DNA of 33,971 nt, taken from positions 1 to 33,971 of IMG/VR virus record IMGVR_UViG_3300049846_000715; one strand, written 5' to 3'. Origin of the DNA: a virus. The notes beneath the pieces were generated by a model. The model was not told the origin of the DNA. It worked only from the letters and a program-made list of their open reading frames with translations, and searched no databases. This document shows, piece by piece, positions 3,356 through 28,302 of the stretch. Positions within the stretch are counted from its first letter, which is position 1. Each line of letters begins with the position of its first letter. A program made the translations under genes and the position numbers.

Positions 3356-3772
3356 TTATTTTATGGCTAAAATGCCGAAAACAATACAAAGGGAGTAAGC
3401 TATCCATTTTTGAACCTTTTGCCCTTTTAGCTCTTTTTTAAGCTGATCGGCCTGATTGATCCGGAGGTTTATCTCCTCCTGTTTCAATGATGTTTGCTCA
3501 TTTGCATTTTTAAGCAATAAATCAAGGTTTTTGATTTGGCTTGTTTTAAGGCTGTTTAACGAATCACAATTGCTCAGGGCTATCTCATAACCATTGGCAA
3601 TTGAATCTGATGCCTGAGCCTTTGTGATTGCTTTTGCAAGGGTTTTTGATTGCTCATAGTTAAACCCAAGTAAAGTATCTCCCTGATTAATTAAAATCTG
3701 AGGCTTTAATGTTTGAGAAAAACTCAACAAGCCCATCCCGATCAAGGCTATCAATACGCTTAATGCTCTCAT
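3356..3772 (-). CDS. Spanin-like lysis protein: signal peptide, coiled coil, C-terminal membrane segment
   Basis: A 138-residue protein. Residues 1-20 form a signal peptide or membrane anchor (A-L-S-V-L-I-A-L-I-G-M-G-L-L). A long heptad-rich coiled coil spans about 40-117, and a second membrane segment lies at 120-137 (W-I-A-Y-S-L-C-I-V-F-G-I-L-A-I). Two anchors joined by a periplasmic coil is what a spanin that bridges the envelope looks like. It lacks the lipobox cysteine expected of an outer-membrane or unimolecular spanin. It starts inside the -1 frame extension of the preceding gene, the nested arrangement of lambda Rz/Rz1, and lies downstream of the endolysin and holin candidate. The ATG at 3772 has the CAAAGCAAAATG leader shared with two other genes. 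Function is inferred from topology and context. Confidence 0.6.
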   Translation of the reverse strand: MRALSVLIALIGMGLLSFSQTLKPQILINQGDTLLGFNYEQSKTLAKAITKAQASDSIANGYEIALSNCDSLNSLKTSQIKNLDLLLKNANEQTSLKQEEINLRINQADQLKKELKGQKVQKWIAYSLCIVFGILAIK

Positions 3773-3839
3773 TTTGCTTTGCTTTTAAGGTTTTAATTTG
3801 TTTCCGGCTCTCGGAGTATTGACTGCTTAAAATGTTTAC
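3687..3839 (-). CDS. -1 frame extension of the i-spanin-like gene
   Basis: After the A-run, the -1 frame stays open for 50 codons and ends with TAA at 3689-3687. It reads V-N-I-L-S-S-Q-Y-S-E-S, then a lysine-rich helix, then D-S-L-D-R-D-G-L-V-E-F-F. The heptad pattern continues from the zero-frame part (V-D-S-L-K-H-Q-A-D-S-L), so the joined ~117-residue product has the size and fold of an Rz-type i-spanin, whereas the zero-frame product stops after 67 residues. The extension has no ATG of its own. It overlaps the first ~28 codons of the next gene. It is reached either by programmed frameshifting or because one A is missing from the assembled homopolymer. Confidence 0.6.
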   Translation of the reverse strand, partial: VNILSSQYSESRKQIKTLKAKQNESIKRIDSLDRDGLVEFFSNIKASDFN

Positions 3840-4039
3840 TTTTTTTTTAAAGTATCATTTTGATTGCTCAATGAATCAGCCTGATGCTTTAAGCTATCAA
3901 CTTTAACTGCCAATGAATCAATTTTGTTTTGATCGGCTGAGGGTTCAATGCTATCCTTTTTAAATACATAAGATATGCCCATTGCCATAAGAATTGAAAA
4001 TACAACAATTGCAATTGCTATTTTAAGGGTTGTTTTCAT
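3836..4039 (-). CDS. i-spanin-like protein, zero-frame part (67 aa)
   Basis: An N-terminal membrane segment (about residues 6-23, I-A-I-A-I-V-V-F-S-I-L-M-A-M-G) is followed by a coiled coil with repeated D-S-L units (about 38-64). This is the topology of an inner-membrane spanin that couples to an outer-membrane partner. The start at 4039 is chosen over an upstream ATG at 4117 because it immediately precedes the membrane segment; it overlaps the end of the holin candidate by 17 bp. The zero frame ends L-K-K-K-stop on a run of nine A, where the slippery heptamer A_AAA_AAG lies in register. See the separate extension entry. Confidence 0.65.
   Translation of the reverse strand: MKTTLKIAIAIVVFSILMAMGISYVFKKDSIEPSADQNKIDSLAVKVDSLKHQADSLSNQNDTLKKK
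3839..3845 (-). other. Slippery heptamer A_AAA_AAG at the zero-frame stop
   Basis: Zero-frame codons are TTA AAA AAA AAG TAA. The last seven bases before the stop form A_AAA_AAG in register, the heptamer used by E. coli dnaX for -1 frameshifting. A -1 slip enters a 50-codon open frame that continues the coiled coil. No strong downstream stem-loop is obvious, only short CTCCGAGAG-type pairings. A homopolymer length error is the rival explanation. Confidence 0.55.
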
Positions 4040-4310
4040 TTTGTATTGTTTTGTTAAATTGTTTCTCTTTTTCTGTTTTTGATACCTCATAACCGGCATA
4101 AACAAACAATGGACCAATTACAATCATGTTATCTGTTGCCGTAAATTTATCCTTGTTGTAAATAACAACAAATATTGTAAGCCCTAAGCCGGTAGCTGTT
4201 AAAACAAATCTGTTTATCCTCTTAGCAGACAAAAACGATTTTTCATTGCTAAATGTTTTGATCCATTCAAGAAAAGCCTTTTTAAAATTTTCCCATCCGA
4301 AAAACATCAT
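4023..4310 (-). CDS. Holin candidate, small two-membrane-segment protein (95 aa)
   Basis: A 95-residue protein with two hydrophobic segments (about 33-50, V-L-T-A-T-G-L-G-L-T-I-F-V-V-I-Y; about 61-77, M-I-V-I-G-P-L-F-V-Y-A-G-Y) and a charged C-terminal tail, the usual shape of a small holin. Its ATG overlaps the endolysin stop (ATGA), and it directly precedes the spanin-like pair, so endolysin, holin and spanins form one lysis cassette. Holin families are too diverse to assign on sequence alone. The coiled-coil membrane protein at 4786-5109 is the rival or a partner. Confidence 0.6.
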   Translation of the reverse strand: MMFFGWENFKKAFLEWIKTFSNEKSFLSAKRINRFVLTATGLGLTIFVVIYNKDKFTATDNMIVIGPLFVYAGYEVSKTEKEKQFNKTIQNENNP

Positions 4311-4783
4311 GCCGTTACGTTTTTATAATTAGCCCAATTTTTTAGTTCAAAATGAGGAGCATCCGGAAACTTCTCATCATTTGAATTTCCATTGTTGTTC
4401 CAATCTCCCCCCCAAATTATTCTTGGCTCAATTTCCTTTATTATTTTAGCAAATCTTTCAAATAGTGCCTTATTCCAATCAAGTTTTTGCTTTAAATTAA
4501 TAAATGCAATATCAAAAGCAAGAGATGGCAAATAATTATGAGGGCTTTGAGATGGCAATGCCTGAGTTACCTTTTCAGATGCCTCATCAATTATTCCGTT
4601 TCCATTATTATCAATCCCATCTTTAGGCTGATTAAACAAAAACAATTGCTCCTCATTTGATCTATAAGTACAGCAAGCAAAAGGCTGTGGATCTAATGGG
4701 TATCTTTTTTTATATTCAAGGCAGGCCTTTTCGTAAGCCTCCTTTAAAATAAAATGTAAGTCTTTTGTATCTCTTGAAGCCAT
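4307..4783 (-). CDS. Peptidase M15-type endolysin (L-Ala-D-Glu or D-Ala-D-Ala peptidase)
   Basis: A 158-residue zinc peptidase that would cut peptide bonds in peptidoglycan during lysis. The zinc ligands are readable as His82 and Asp91 in S-P-H-N-Y-L-P-S-L-A-F-D and His144 in D-A-P-H-F-E-L. The first motif is two residues longer than the classical SxHxxGxAxD. Two Asp/Asn/Gly-rich loops are unusual: D-G-I-D-N-N-G-N-G-I-I-D-E at about 55-67, which resembles calcium-binding loops, and D-W-N-N-N-G-N-S-N-D-E at about 127-137, just before the last ligand. There is no signal peptide, so export would need the holin. It sits between the coiled-coil membrane protein and the holin candidate, with a 4-bp overlap to the latter. 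Confidence 0.85.
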   Translation of the reverse strand: MASRDTKDLHFILKEAYEKACLEYKKRYPLDPQPFACCTYRSNEEQLFLFNQPKDGIDNNGNGIIDEASEKVTQALPSQSPHNYLPSLAFDIAFINLKQKLDWNKALFERFAKIIKEIEPRIIWGGDWNNNGNSNDEKFPDAPHFELKNWANYKNVTA

Positions 4784-4785
4784 TT

Positions 4786-5109
4786 TTATTTGAATAAATA
4801 ATGAATGAATCCTTTTATTTTAGGCCAAATTGAAATAAGAATCAAAGCTATTCCTCCAAGCCAAGCAAGAATTTTAAAAGTCCATGATCCGTAAAACTTT
4901 GCTTGCATTACCTCTTTAACAACAGGGTACATCTTATTGACACGATCAGATAAAATTGAGATGTTTTGATTCATTTTCTGAATTTCGTTCATCAGCTCTC
5001 GGTTTGTTTTTTGGGCTTGCTCATAGTCAATGATAAGCCTTTCAATCCTATTGTTGTTAATCTCAAGAATTGCAACCCGTTCTCTCAATGTTTTATCGTT
5101 TTCGTTCAT
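4786..5109 (-). CDS. Coiled-coil protein with C-terminal membrane anchor (lysis region)
   Basis: Residues 1-75 are a long charged coiled coil (R-E-R-V-A-I-L-E-I-N-N-N-R-I-E-R-L). One membrane segment lies at about 82-97 (I-L-A-W-L-G-G-I-A-L-I-L-I-S-I-W), ending in a basic tail. This shape recalls XhlA-type lysis accessory proteins, which act with a holin at the inner membrane. It ends 2 bp before the endolysin start, which supports a lysis role. The identification is by shape and position only. Confidence 0.55.
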   Translation of the reverse strand: MNENDKTLRERVAILEINNNRIERLIIDYEQAQKTNRELMNEIQKMNQNISILSDRVNKMYPVVKEVMQAKFYGSWTFKILAWLGGIALILISIWPKIKGFIHYLFK

Positions 5110-5915: not shown

Positions 5916-7571
5916 TTAAACAATATTTACTACTCCGCTATTATTCCATAAGTCGCCCGAAACAAGTCCCGTTGCGCTTGTTGGTAGGTTCTGCATACGA
6001 ACTCTACCATCGTTCCTAACAGATAAGTTTTGCTGTGTTTCCGCATTATTATAAACTACTAATCCAAAATTTGTTGAAGTTCCATCAGCAACAATTCTCA
6101 ACCTTTTTCCTGATTCGGGGCTATTAGCACCAATTACCCAATCGCCTGCACTATTTGAATTTAACACATAAGCTGAACCATTACGTAATATTCCAAATCC
6201 ACCTGAACTATTAAATCCTGCGCCTTCTGCAATTAGTTCAAAAGATGTTGTACCGCCTGCACCACTATTAAGCAACTTTAATACTGCACCGCTTGTTGTT
6301 GAACCGTTCGCCTCTATTGTTAGTAATGAATCAGCAACATTTGTTCCTGCTTTATATATGTGTAAACTTGTTGATGGCGTTGTTGTGTTTATACCAACAC
6401 TTCCCAATAAATAAGCCTCACCGTTATCCTTTATCGTAAATAAATCCGTTGGCGTGTTGTTCGTTACTTTTAATGCGTATGTTCCGCTTCCTGTGCCTGA
6501 ACCCTTTACATGAACTGCTGCCGATGGCGCTGCTGTGCCTATTCCTAATCTATTGTTTGTATCATCCCAAAAAAAGTTTGTTGAATCTTGTTGTAATACG
6601 TTGCCCGAGCCTTGAAATAAAACTCCTCCTATTGTTCCGCTTGCAATACTTGTTGTTCCTACGGTCAAGCCTCCTCCTCCTGCTGCCTGCCATGTAGCTA
6701 CTCCACTCCCGTCTGTTGTTAAAACAAAACCGTTTGTTTCGTTACCGTCTTTGTAAATCAATCTACGGTCATCTCTTAATTGAAACCAAGGAGTTGGCGT
6801 ATCATTCTCAACCCATAATGAATATGTTGCATTTGATCCTCCTCCTTTTATATGTAATTTACCTGATGCAGTTATTGATGAACCAATGCTTAAACGCCCA
6901 TTTGTTTCAAGTTTCATTTGAGCAACGCCTGATCCAACGTGCCATGTTAAATCTGAACTTGCTCTTGTTTCTCCATATAACCATAATGTTTTCCAATATT
7001 TATTGGATAAAGCAAAAGGACCTCCAAGAGAATATGTATTGTTTGTATCAGGAGCAAAACTGCCTGCAATATAAATTGCAGGATCTCCGGCTGCCTCAGT
7101 TAATAAGGAATCGGTTAAGGATGCAGCTCCTGACCATTTAGGCAACTTGTTTAAAGTTCCTGATCCTGAAACTCCTCCGGCTGCGTTTTGGTTTACCCAA
7201 ACTCCCCCTTGATAGGTTAAAACTTGGCCGTTTACAGGGCTTGATATTGTTACATCAGATAAAGCATTTAAAGCAATTACCTCGGGGCCTACAATAGCGG
7301 ACCAATGAGCAGGATTAAATGTTCCGGTTGTTGCCGTTGTACATTGGTAAATTACTCCCAATTTAATCGCACCCTCTCCAACCTCGTATGATCTTGCTGT
7401 GTTGTACTCTCTTAAATTCAAAAGGGGTTTATCATCAACCCTGTTGATTGACGAATCAATCAAATCGTTAAAGGCTCCACGTATATCAGCCGGAGATATA
7501 TCTCTTGTTGTATTGTCGTTGATTGCCGTTGCTGTGTCGGCAGTTAAATTTGCTTTTGTTTTTATGCTCAT
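5916..7571 (-). CDS. Tail fibre protein with repeated GIG(T)xxPS beta modules
   Basis: A 551-residue virion protein. The N-terminal part (about 1-130) includes N-T-A-R-S-Y-E-V-G-E and likely anchors to the baseplate. After that come repeated units built on R-L-G-I-G-T-A-A-P-S, V-G-I-N-T-T-T-P-S and R-L-S-I-G-S-S, each followed by a short beta hairpin with L-H-I-K or V-H-V-K. This pattern is common in Bacteroidetes phage and surface fibre proteins and suggests a trimeric beta fibre that binds the host. The C terminus is short (N-L-P-T-S-A-T-G-L-V-S-G-D-L-W-N), and I see no S74-type self-cleaving chaperone. It is the last gene of the baseplate block. Confidence 0.75.
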   Translation of the reverse strand: MSIKTKANLTADTATAINDNTTRDISPADIRGAFNDLIDSSINRVDDKPLLNLREYNTARSYEVGEGAIKLGVIYQCTTATTGTFNPAHWSAIVGPEVIALNALSDVTISSPVNGQVLTYQGGVWVNQNAAGGVSGSGTLNKLPKWSGAASLTDSLLTEAAGDPAIYIAGSFAPDTNNTYSLGGPFALSNKYWKTLWLYGETRASSDLTWHVGSGVAQMKLETNGRLSIGSSITASGKLHIKGGGSNATYSLWVENDTPTPWFQLRDDRRLIYKDGNETNGFVLTTDGSGVATWQAAGGGGLTVGTTSIASGTIGGVLFQGSGNVLQQDSTNFFWDDTNNRLGIGTAAPSAAVHVKGSGTGSGTYALKVTNNTPTDLFTIKDNGEAYLLGSVGINTTTPSTSLHIYKAGTNVADSLLTIEANGSTTSGAVLKLLNSGAGGTTSFELIAEGAGFNSSGGFGILRNGSAYVLNSNSAGDWVIGANSPESGKRLRIVADGTSTNFGLVVYNNAETQQNLSVRNDGRVRMQNLPTSATGLVSGDLWNNSGVVNIV

Positions 7572-8171: not shown

Positions 8172-8670
8172 GTTTAACGGTTTTGTTTTCCAACTCCTGT
8201 TGCTGTGTTATTACCAACTGCTGAGCTGCCCATGATGCTGCTGTTGCTTTCAAGGCTGCTCCTCCATCAGTCGGAACAACTACCCATGATGCAAAGATAG
8301 TTTTTAAGGTATTGAGTTCGTTTTCTAAGGCATTGATTTTGCTTAATAAACTTGTAACAATAACAAGCCCCCCATTTTGATCCCCGTTTAACTCAATGCT
8401 TTTTACCTTTGAATAGGCAACAATTACTCCTGCCGTTGGGGTGTACATTTGAACAACAACAATTGAATCATCTTGAGGGATCAACTTTGTTGCTCCTGAT
8501 AAATCAACAGAAAAACGAGCCTCCGGAACCTCAACCTCCCCGTTTAAAGGATCAACAATACATGATCCATTGCTCTCATTTACTGAGCCGGTTCTAACTT
8601 TCCCAATTATTGTTTTTTGCTCGTTGGCAATCTTTTCAACAAATTGCTTTAAAGCATCATAAAGCTCCAT
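8155..8670 (-). CDS. Baseplate spike or assembly protein (gpV/Mu gp45-like)
   Basis: A 171-residue protein. An N-terminal helix is followed by a beta-rich OB-like region (G-K-V-R-T-G-S-V-N-E-S-N-G-S-C-I-V-D-P) typical of spike proteins, then V-P-E-A-R-F-S-V, and a short helical C-terminal region with a coiled coil (about 110-130). It follows the hub gene by 3 bp, the usual hub-spike order in contractile phages. I see no metal-binding HxH tip. Confidence 0.6.
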   Translation of the reverse strand: MELYDALKQFVEKIANEQKTIIGKVRTGSVNESNGSCIVDPLNGEVEVPEARFSVDLSGATKLIPQDDSIVVVQMYTPTAGVIVAYSKVKSIELNGDQNGGLVIVTSLLSKINALENELNTLKTIFASWVVVPTDGGAALKATAASWAAQQLVITQQQELENKTVKHGYTS

Positions 8671-8673
8671 TTA

Positions 8674-9663
8674 TCAAAGTTTTGTTTCAAGTTCAATCTC
8701 CTGCCTATATCCGTTCACTCCCCATGTATAATTTACTGATTTTATTAAATACAAGCCATTCCTTTCAGGCATAACGATTGAAACCAATGAGGCAACATCT
8801 CCTGAATCAACGTGAGGCTCCCCAAATGTTACAAATGTTCCAATGTAACCGGTATATTTTACCCGATCAAGCTCCCTCTTGGCTGCCTTTTGAACATCCT
8901 CAAATGGTACATTGTAAAGGTTTATAGTTCTCAAATCTCCATCAATATCCCCAAAATAATAAGGCTCCGTTTTCCGGTTATCAGAATAAAAATAATTCAC
9001 TTTAACTCTGATCTTTAAATCCTCCTGAATTTGATACTTTAAATTTGAATCATTGATGATGTTTTGCTCAAACTTAAATACCTGAGTTTTTTGGTTTGCT
9101 ACAATGTAAGGCTCCCCAACGTATAAACCTCCGTTTTCCATCCTTGCAAATAGCCCCTGAGATTTTAACTGCTTTAATACGTTTGATACGTTTGAACCAC
9201 TTGAAACCCTCCAATCTCCAACGGTAATATCAAGAGCCGTAAAGCTGTACCCAACAGGCAAGATTCCTGTTAGTAGTTGTTTTAATGTTACTCCCGTTCC
9301 TGCAAAGGGCCTGCAAGCCATTTGTTTCAATAAAAACATTCCATCCTCGGCCTCAATCTCAATCGGTATCTTTGCATTTACCTGAGAGATATATCCCGAA
9401 AAGATTTGTTTGATCGTTGGAAAGTAACCAAGCCAAACCTCAATTTTATCCCCTCTTTTAAATATTGGTTTTGCCCCGTTTATTATTTGCCTATCCTCAA
9501 GGCCGTTTTTACGGGGAAAAATAATTTTGCAAGTATCTGTTAAGCCATCAAAACCTTTGTTGATCTCAATGTTGTTTGCATAATTCAAAACGGTTTTTGT
9601 TGATCCGGTTTGAGCATCTGATACAATTATTTTACATTCAAGCCTAAGCATTGTTTGAATCAA
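8674..9663 (-). CDS. Baseplate hub protein (gpD/Mu gp44-like)
   Basis: A 329-residue protein with beta-rich N-terminal hub domain (I-N-K-G-F-D-G-L-T-D-T-C-K-I-I-F-P-R) and the typical hub string R-G-D-K-I-E-V-W-L-G-Y, followed by an I-F-S-G-Y-I segment. The C-terminal part contains V-D-S-G-D-V-A-S-L and G-L-Y-L-I-K-S-V-N-Y-T-W-G-V-N-G-Y-R-Q-E, as in late-control D proteins. It closes the tail tube and carries the spike. Length and neighbours fit the Mu/P2 hub. Confidence 0.75.
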   Translation of the reverse strand: MIQTMLRLECKIIVSDAQTGSTKTVLNYANNIEINKGFDGLTDTCKIIFPRKNGLEDRQIINGAKPIFKRGDKIEVWLGYFPTIKQIFSGYISQVNAKIPIEIEAEDGMFLLKQMACRPFAGTGVTLKQLLTGILPVGYSFTALDITVGDWRVSSGSNVSNVLKQLKSQGLFARMENGGLYVGEPYIVANQKTQVFKFEQNIINDSNLKYQIQEDLKIRVKVNYFYSDNRKTEPYYFGDIDGDLRTINLYNVPFEDVQKAAKRELDRVKYTGYIGTFVTFGEPHVDSGDVASLVSIVMPERNGLYLIKSVNYTWGVNGYRQEIELETKL

Positions 9664-26543: not shown

Positions 26544-27863
26544 CTAAAATTGGTTTTGTTCTGAAACCGCCTGATTGATAATTCTCATAATCTTGTTTGA
26601 ATATCTCACAAATAATGCCTTGAATGTTTCCTTGTGCTTTGTTCCATCCTCGGCCTGCTTAACTTGCATCAGGTCCTCAGCCGTTTTTTTGCAGTTCTTG
26701 TTGATTGATATGTTGATCCCTGCAAAATTGGATGATAAAACAGCGTTTATGAATTGGCCTCTCATGTAAACAGATGGGTTTGAACTCGGGAGCCTAAGCA
26801 CCGGCTTGAACTGCTCCAATTCCCTCTGAATAAGTTTAAAAAAGTTAAAGCCTTTCTCAATCTTTACATCCTGCTTTTTGCTTGTTGCATCCCCTGTAAT
26901 CATCATGCCGTTTACATGGTTGAAATACTTTGATCTGATCATCTCACAAATTCCGGAAACGGTATTTTGAGGATGCTTTGCTGCAAACTCATCAATGATA
27001 AACAGGCTCTTGCCTTTTACCTGAGCAACAACGCAACTAAGATACGGGTTTACGTTTTCATCAAATGAAACGAACAATGGGAGGGATGGATCATAAACTG
27101 CAAGCTCTGATGTATGATTGAAAAACGAAAAACCAAAATAAAACTCTTGCCCTGTTTTTTGTAGTACATCCCAATTACCATTTACATAAACCTCAAACTC
27201 ATATGGAGGCATATTGTTTTTTAATGATTCTATATAATCCTTACTCAAATAAGGGTTATCAGTTAGCTTTGCCGGAATGTAAGCCCATCCTTTTGGCAAT
27301 TGGCTCTCTTTGTGTTTGTCGTAAATCCTTTGCTTTACCCAACCTAATGTTGGATTGCAAGTTGCCAAAATCTTAGGAGGGCATTGGGAGCCGTTCCAAG
27401 AGCCTGATCGTTCAATCACTTTGTTGAACGTAACCTCCTCAATTTCGTTTACCTCATCAATGCCTGCTCCATTGATCTCAAGCCCCCTGAATTTATTGAG
27501 TTCTTTGTCTGAATCATAACTCTCAGCCATGAACAAAATTTGAGAGCCGTTGTTCCAAGTAGCTGTTAAACTTTGCCCATCAAATTTTTTCAGGTATTGC
27601 TCAAAGCCTTCGGCCAACATTTGCCGGAATGATACTAAAATAGTACGTTCTAAATTGGTATATGATGCCCTGAGAATGATCCAACGGGAATTGGGATATT
27701 GGAAACAATATGTAATAAGTTCCAATAATAACCAATAAGATTTGCCTCCCCTGATAGCCCCACCATAAACAACAACTGTGTTATTTTTCAAAATGAGATG
27801 GGCCTCTTTTTGCTTAGGGGTTGGGTTGATCCTCTTGGGTTGAATCTTTTGTCGTCCAATCAA
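26544..27863 (-). CDS. Terminase large subunit
   Basis: A 439-residue packaging motor. The ATPase part shows Walker A G-G-A-I-R-G-G-K-S (34-42), Walker B G-I-D-E-V-N-E (134-140, catalytic Glu137) and coupling motif A-T-C-N-P (167-171). The nuclease part has acidic candidates Asp268 (S-F-D-E-N), Asp291 and Asp325 (T-G-D-A-T). It would cut and pump DNA through the portal two genes downstream. It overlaps the small subunit gene by 50 bp, and the ATPase-nuclease order is intact, so it appears functional. Confidence 0.9.
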   Translation of the reverse strand: MIGRQKIQPKRINPTPKQKEAHLILKNNTVVVYGGAIRGGKSYWLLLELITYCFQYPNSRWIILRASYTNLERTILVSFRQMLAEGFEQYLKKFDGQSLTATWNNGSQILFMAESYDSDKELNKFRGLEINGAGIDEVNEIEEVTFNKVIERSGSWNGSQCPPKILATCNPTLGWVKQRIYDKHKESQLPKGWAYIPAKLTDNPYLSKDYIESLKNNMPPYEFEVYVNGNWDVLQKTGQEFYFGFSFFNHTSELAVYDPSLPLFVSFDENVNPYLSCVVAQVKGKSLFIIDEFAAKHPQNTVSGICEMIRSKYFNHVNGMMITGDATSKKQDVKIEKGFNFFKLIQRELEQFKPVLRLPSSNPSVYMRGQFINAVLSSNFAGINISINKNCKKTAEDLMQVKQAEDGTKHKETFKALFVRYSNKIMRIINQAVSEQNQF

Positions 27864-28302
27864 TTAAAATCGGTGTTTGTATTTTTTCTCCATCCGTTGT
27901 AAGGTCGAGCTTATCCCCGTACTTTTTAGGCTTTAATTTAGATGCAATGAATTTCCTTGTATCAACTCTCAACCGGCTCCTATTTACCCATTCTCTGTTT
28001 TCAATCTCCTCCCCCATCCTGTTTAAAGTTGTATCATTGGTTGAGTTATCAGCAATCTCAAGCATCTCCTCAGCAAGATAATCAGCTTGATCCTCTCTTG
28101 CTTTTGCGTATTTGTCCGAAAATTGCTTGTTTTCGCTGATCCATTTATGAACTGTTGAACGTGTTGGCATCCCCTCTTGCTTGCAAATAGTAACAAGGCC
28201 CCTGTTTGAGTTAGCAATTGCCTCACAAATACGATCAGCAAGCTCCTCGGAGTATTTTGTCGGCCTGCCAACGCTATTTTTTTTATCCTCTTTTTTTGCC
28301 AT
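27814..28302 (-). CDS. Terminase small subunit
   Basis: A 162-residue DNA-recognition subunit. K-K-N-S-V-G-R-P-T-K-Y, then a helix-turn-helix-like core (I-C-K-Q-E-G-M-P-T-R-S-T-V-H-K-W-I) is the family pattern, followed by a helical oligomerisation part (A-D-Y-L-A-E-E-M-L-E-I) and the R-K-F-I-A-S-K-L-K-P-K-K-Y-G-D phrase. The overlap with the large subunit gene (50 bp) is typical of paired terminase genes. Confidence 0.85.
   Translation of the reverse strand: MAKKEDKKNSVGRPTKYSEELADRICEAIANSNRGLVTICKQEGMPTRSTVHKWISENKQFSDKYAKAREDQADYLAEEMLEIADNSTNDTTLNRMGEEIENREWVNRSRLRVDTRKFIASKLKPKKYGDKLDLTTDGEKIQTPILIDWTTKDSTQEDQPNP

Follow-up and report, generated by a model that had tools for sequence, protein, structure and literature searches.

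An overlapped spanin-like gene pair with a probable one-base lesion in the lysis cassette of a putative Bacteroidota phage

The last two genes of the lysis cassette in IMG/VR virus record IMGVR_UViG_3300049846_000715 (33,971 bases, one strand given 5' to 3'; this whole stretch is here called the window) appear to encode a spanin-like pair, A and B, of which gene A is broken at a run of nine A's. The best explanation, to which as a whole we give a probability of about 0.72, is that the virus is a contractile-tail phage of Bacteroidota with A and B as the outer-membrane-disruption pair of its lysis cassette, and that A is a normal, uninterrupted i-spanin-type gene from which one A has been lost, whether by an assembly error or by a change in the virus itself. 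An initial annotation had proposed a spanin-like pair built around a regulatory frameshift site. The pair is borne out by its layout and anatomy, but the regulatory device is not, as A is intact in all four comparison pairs and the site has no recognizable stimulator; since A is unbroken in those four pairs, we consider a one-base lesion more probable than a frameshift that serves as a switch. Of greater interest than the break is the overlapping partner without a lipobox, an unusual arrangement that is recurrent in Bacteroidota phages.

Genome setting and lysis cassette

Genes of the window follow the order of a contractile-tail phage (terminase, portal, sheath, tape measure, baseplate hub), and the nearest matches of the large terminase, at ~29%, are Bacteroides phage BS-TP1 and the Flavobacterium phages pippi8/lotta8 (Winoviridae). 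Searches with the baseplate hub and tape-measure proteins returned only relatives at ~30-50% identity. The lysis cassette lies on the minus strand and runs XhlA-like gene, M15 endolysin, holin-like gene, A and B (Table 1), so that A and B follow the other lysis genes as the members of a two-component spanin do. Its genes overlap or abut, with the sole exception of 63 nt between the stop of A0, the zero-frame part of gene A, and the start of B.

The endolysin also matches PF13539 at E 1e-4, just under the Pfam cut-off, and it is 71% identical to the endolysin (6001-6444) of L002, an 82-kb phage in which the genes around the endolysin are otherwise unlike those in the window. This identity amid differing neighbours suggests a lysis-enzyme exchange. 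Near the L002 endolysin (8564-9148) is a 194-aa protein with an N-terminal transmembrane segment (TM) and a C-terminal stretch resembling outer-membrane beta strands, which may be another spanin-like design. The holin-like protein of the window is 34-35% identical to small proteins of L211 and L212, two uncultured megaphages of ~640 kb.

Table 1. Features of the window and of the four comparison pairs
Feature	Location	Strand	Description	Basis or layout
XhlA/hemolysin-like coiled-coil protein	4786..5109	minus	107 aa; C-terminal TM; first cassette gene	phrog_937 hemolysin E 0.005; phrog_5211 E 2e-4
Endolysin	4307..4783	minus	M15 D-Ala-D-Ala peptidase type	phrog_465 E 2e-17
Holin-like small membrane protein	4023..4310	minus	95 aa	ORF list; 17-nt overlap with start of A
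A0, zero-frame part of gene A	3836..4039	minus	67 aa; TM at the N-terminus followed by coiled coil; closes on LKKK-TAA	direct read and ORF list
A9 run	3840..3848	minus	TTA AAA AAA AAG TAA	heptamer A_AAA_AAG in register
-1 frame extension	3687..3838	minus	50 codons; C-terminal half of gene A	codon usage, heptad register
B	3356..3772	minus	138 aa; signal peptide (LLSFSQ/T) that lacks a lipobox, then coiled coil and a hydrophobic C-terminal segment	direct read and ORF list
Flavobacterium phage pippi8-1 A/B	gp52/gp53		A 119 aa, single ORF	overlap 80 nt
Croceibacter phage P2559S A/B	A 27300-27674, B 27508-28065		A 124 aa, single ORF	overlap 167 nt
IMG/VR contig L091 A/B			A 151 aa, single ORF, adjoins holin and lysozyme	overlap 98 nt
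L111 A/B			A 110 aa, single ORF, after endolysin and holin	overlap 104 nt

Gene A and its continuation in the -1 frame

When the minus strand is read directly, A0 begins with the ATG at 4039 and its zero frame closes on ...NDTLKKK-TAA, with the stop at 3838-3836, which confirms that the gene ends on nine A's and that the heptamer A_AAA_AAG is in register. The -1 frame then continues as VNILSSQ...ASDFN to a stop at 3689-3687, and the fused product is 117 aa long, in agreement with the 50 open codons and ~117 residues first described. The coiled coil likewise carries on across the break in exact register: the heptads IDSLAVK-VDSLKHQ-ADSLSNQ-NDTLKKK of A0 are followed by VNILSSQ-YSESRKQ-IKTLKAK with phase unchanged, and hydrophobic residues occupy 7 of 11 core positions (shuffle p 0.003, best of seven registers).

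Codon usage gives the same picture. With a model trained on 24 longer genes, the segment that separates the A0 stop from B scores +2.3 bits in the -1 frame, as against -13.0 and -4.5 bits in the other frames, and in the overlap with B the extension scores +13.5 bits versus +5.2 bits for B's own frame. On the basis of this codon usage, the heptad register, the +1 phase of B and the four comparison pairs described below, it is almost certain that the second half of gene A is encoded by the extension.

These properties argue strongly against the idea that A0 functions alone, as a truncated 67-aa inner-membrane coiled coil next to a -1 frame that is open by chance. A0 does carry a complete TM and four heptads, but a -1 frame entered at a random codon inside this phage's genes stays open for at least 50 codons only 2.2% of the time, the extension has coding-like codon usage and continues the heptads, comparable proteins are 110-151 aa long, and the 63-nt gap that would be left before B is unusual where the other cassette genes overlap or abut; this reading is accordingly considered very improbable.

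By sequence, hydropathy and heptads, the fused 117-aa A has the N-terminal TM and the periplasmic, usually coiled-coil, domain of an i-spanin, and it is best regarded as an i-spanin-type protein for which we infer a spanin function. A match to the phrog_739 'Rz-like spanin' profile also improves when the two parts are joined, from 22.7 bits (E 1.8e-4) for A0 to 35.3 bits for fused A. This profile is unspecific, however: TM-plus-coil proteins match it in 9 of the 14 genomes used as controls, and annotation from PHROG 739 alone is therefore unreliable and its match to A weak evidence. The same profile matches TM-plus-coiled-coil proteins across many bacteria and archaea.

Gene B, a partner without a lipobox

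Gene B extends from the ATG at 3772 to the stop at 3356 and thus begins inside the extension of A, as was first noted, 86 nt before the extension ends. With this 86-nt overlap the layout belongs to the overlapped class, and the nested, embedded arrangement of the Rz/Rz1 type that had been suggested for the pair does not apply. B is in the +1 frame relative to the extension and in phase 0 relative to A0. Its N-terminus is MRALSVLIALIGMGLLSFSQT, with no Cys at the lipobox position, and its C-terminus, WIAYSLCIVFGILAI, is hydrophobic; the earlier description of B as a protein with a signal, a coiled coil and no lipobox is therefore upheld.

The o-spanin of a two-component system is a lipoprotein of the outer membrane, marked by a lipobox Cys, and the two spanin genes may be separated, overlapped or embedded. 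B lacks that Cys and so is not an o-spanin of this kind. Nor does it combine, as a unimolecular spanin does, an outer-membrane lipoprotein signal with a C-terminal TM, since of these B has a hydrophobic C-terminal segment and no lipobox.

Comparable gene pairs in other lysis cassettes

Four pairs were available for comparison, three from a layout scan of related records (pippi8-1, L091 and L111) and a fourth from the published isolate P2559S. In every one of them A is uninterrupted and B starts inside A, always in the +1 frame, and the 117 aa of the window's fused A lie within the range of the comparable A proteins (110-151 aa). Aligned identity with the window is only 11-27%, at which sequence homology is not proven, and the agreement is one of position, layout, size and phase. 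Because B is +1 to the extension but phase 0 to A0, the window fits this common layout if A misses one base.

The initial annotation had looked to homologous lysis loci for conservation of the A run and of both frames. None of the four pairs found, each of them distant, has the zero-frame stop or the open -1 frame, and since A is intact throughout, the frameshift is not a shared feature. No close relatives of fused A, B or the holin were found in IMG/VR, where a DNA search with a flexible A run gave no second copy of the site, and tblastn with A or B in phage records gave no convincing relative. Searches of Bacteroidota genomes with B and phrog_739 yielded coiled-coil noise only, and an A/B layout scan of forty further stretches of related viral records added no new cases.

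The B proteins of the window, pippi8-1, L091 and L111 share an S-Q or A-Q motif near the end of the signal peptide, a coiled coil, a C-terminal hydrophobic segment and the lack of a lipobox. That of P2559S (L205) has a C-terminus unlike that of the other B proteins, and it resembles an outer-membrane beta segment whose last residue is aromatic. From these sequences it is plausible that the recurring A/B pair of Bacteroidota phages is an overlooked spanin variant.

Two observations concern the database entries of these pairs. The annotated start of P2559S B (GTG at 27826) misses the signal peptide, and the real ORF is that of Table 1. The contig L111, whose phage cassette is of Bacteroidota type, is assigned to a Neisseriaceae MAG, which is probably a binning error.

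What the A_AAA_AAG heptamer shows

The sequence at the break has the X_XXY_YYZ form of a -1 slip site, A_AAA_AAG, in register in the zero frame, and with nine A's at the frame break it also has the length of homopolymer (at least nine A or T) associated with transcriptional slippage. The initial annotation proposed frameshift-regulated spanins from the heptamer. In a fuller form of this reading, programmed frameshifting, a selected A9/A_AAA_AAG, slipped on by the ribosome (-1) or by RNA polymerase, would set the ratio of short A0, a possible antagonist, to the full-length i-spanin and might be coupled to, and control, the translation of B. The dnaX-type heptamer is indeed in register and the stop follows it immediately, polymerase slippage usually becomes significant once a run reaches nine A's, as in the A9 of Thermus thermophilus dnaX (PMC1088944), and the start of B is enclosed by a weak long-range fold. 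A close organisational precedent is also provided by Shigella spa13/spa32, in which slippage after 58 codons of spa13 lengthens the product by 112 aa; this extension overlaps spa32 and influences how that gene is expressed (PMC5009743).

Nevertheless, loss of one A from TTA AAA AAA AAA GTA (K-K-K-V, A10) automatically produces both the in-register A_AAA_AAG and the TAA that follows it. The heptamer is then a by-product of the lesion; it provides no independent evidence for programming, contrary to what was first supposed, and cannot separate the hypotheses. A -1 slip at the A9 would merely reverse the loss of one A, and the same protein results either way. In addition, five more in-register A_AAA_AAG copies among the window's ORF calls show no sign of recoding.

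The surroundings of the site also lack the stimulatory elements, an SD-like sequence and/or a stem-loop, of a programmed frameshift. No SD-like sequence is present within 40 nt upstream of the slip site, and the 69 nt directly after it fold no better than shuffled sequences (z -0.6, pseudoknot-free prediction). A stimulatory RNA structure was considered in the wider downstream region, whose fold looked notable at z -2.8; 23 of 418 segments of the same genome (5.5%) reach that value, and the structure is unexceptional. Together with the absence of the feature from the four other pairs, these points make programmed frameshifting of this kind unlikely.

Nine or ten A's

The favoured explanation is that gene A was ancestrally one continuous i-spanin-type gene and that the contig misses one A in its K-K-K run. 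Two origins would account for this, and the choice between them is, like the spanin function, a part of the explanation that goes beyond what is shown: the assembly may have miscounted an A10, or the virus may have a true A9, in which case full-length A would arise by RNA-polymerase slippage and/or by -1 ribosome slippage at A_AAA_AAG. Such slippage on a true A9 would rescue the gene fortuitously and would not amount to a conserved means of regulation. If the A9 is real, full-length A is probably still made in part; slippage is known to rescue Citrobacter rodentium tssM, which is interrupted at a poly-A run, at ~20% (PMC4256274).

The A9 is the sole homopolymer of at least nine in the 34-kb window, where 4.4 are expected under a fourth-order Markov model, and as the longest run of the contig it is the place to expect either a miscount in assembly or a genuine slip in replication. 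That the break coincides exactly with this run, and that frame continuity, once restored, gives the layout of the four other pairs, would both be explained by an assembly or sequencing error alone, the virus having ten A's and a normal single ORF. On the other side, none of the shorter runs in other genes is accompanied by a break, runs of eight leaving those genes open, and the ORF and homopolymer listing shows no obvious second broken gene in the contig as a sign of poor general quality. Runs of ten within genes are also rare in comparable phages: the genes of seven Bacteroidota phage isolates have one A10/T10 run and a dozen of nine, so that an A10 original would be uncommon yet not unheard of, which argues mildly against it. 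A pure artefact is thus a serious contender, although it falls somewhat short of an even chance.

Significance

No description of frameshift-regulated spanins was found in the literature searched, and a true frameshift device at this locus would be a new way to set the ratio of lysis proteins, with outer-membrane lysis under the control of recoding. With a one-base lesion as the preferred reading, what stands out is that several lineages of Bacteroidota phages have an i-spanin-like gene overlapped in the +1 frame by a gene for a signal-peptide protein without a lipobox. A 2018 survey listed P2559S as spanin-less while itself raising the possibility of spanins with other topologies (PMC6139136), and according to a 2025 survey all spanins used by Bacteroidetes phages are unimolecular (PMC12596118). 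Should the A/B pairs work as spanins, both surveys would have to be corrected on this point, and the route by which the second partner reaches the outer membrane becomes a testable question.

Comparison with known systems

Among poly-A slip sites, that of E. coli dnaX has the identical heptamer A_AAA_AAG in the same register and directs a -1 ribosomal frameshift, but the window has neither the SD-like stimulator nor a clear stem-loop, and the shift there would give an extended, not a shortened, product. T. thermophilus dnaX (A9), spa13/spa32 and tssM likewise have a poly-A run at the frame break; in spa13, as in A, the extension overlaps the next gene, and in tssM slippage rescues an interrupted gene. 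Unlike in these slippage genes, the A9 of the window is not conserved in the other pairs found.

Two-component spanins of the overlapped class (of the Rz/Rz1 type, overlapped as in P2) resemble A and B in several ways: the pair comes last in the lysis cassette, A combines an N-terminal TM with a periplasmic coiled coil, and the partner overlaps it in the +1 frame. The differences are that B, with no lipobox and a hydrophobic C-terminal end, is not a typical outer-membrane lipoprotein, and that A of the window is frame-broken.

A protein of 190-205 aa that is encoded on the opposite strand in phages with a related endolysin (minus strand; L101 1018-1599, L103 4823-5413, L104 4706-5323, L105 4630-5211, L106 4618-5190) has an N-terminal TM directly followed by a conserved Cys, and its C-terminal membrane segment is rich in Gly; by this anatomy it appears u-spanin-like with a non-canonical lipobox.

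Like B, the unimolecular spanin gp11 of phage T1 has an export signal at its N-terminus and a hydrophobic anchor at its C-terminus; B differs in lacking a lipobox and in being accompanied by an upstream i-spanin-like partner. A classical protein with a lipobox and a C-terminal TM is found in or near the lysis region of Flavobacterium phages 11b and FCL-2, Cellulophaga phage phi17:1 and Polaribacter phage P12002S. These proteins also have the export signal and C-terminal anchor in common with B, whereas B is a protein without a lipobox that has A as its partner.
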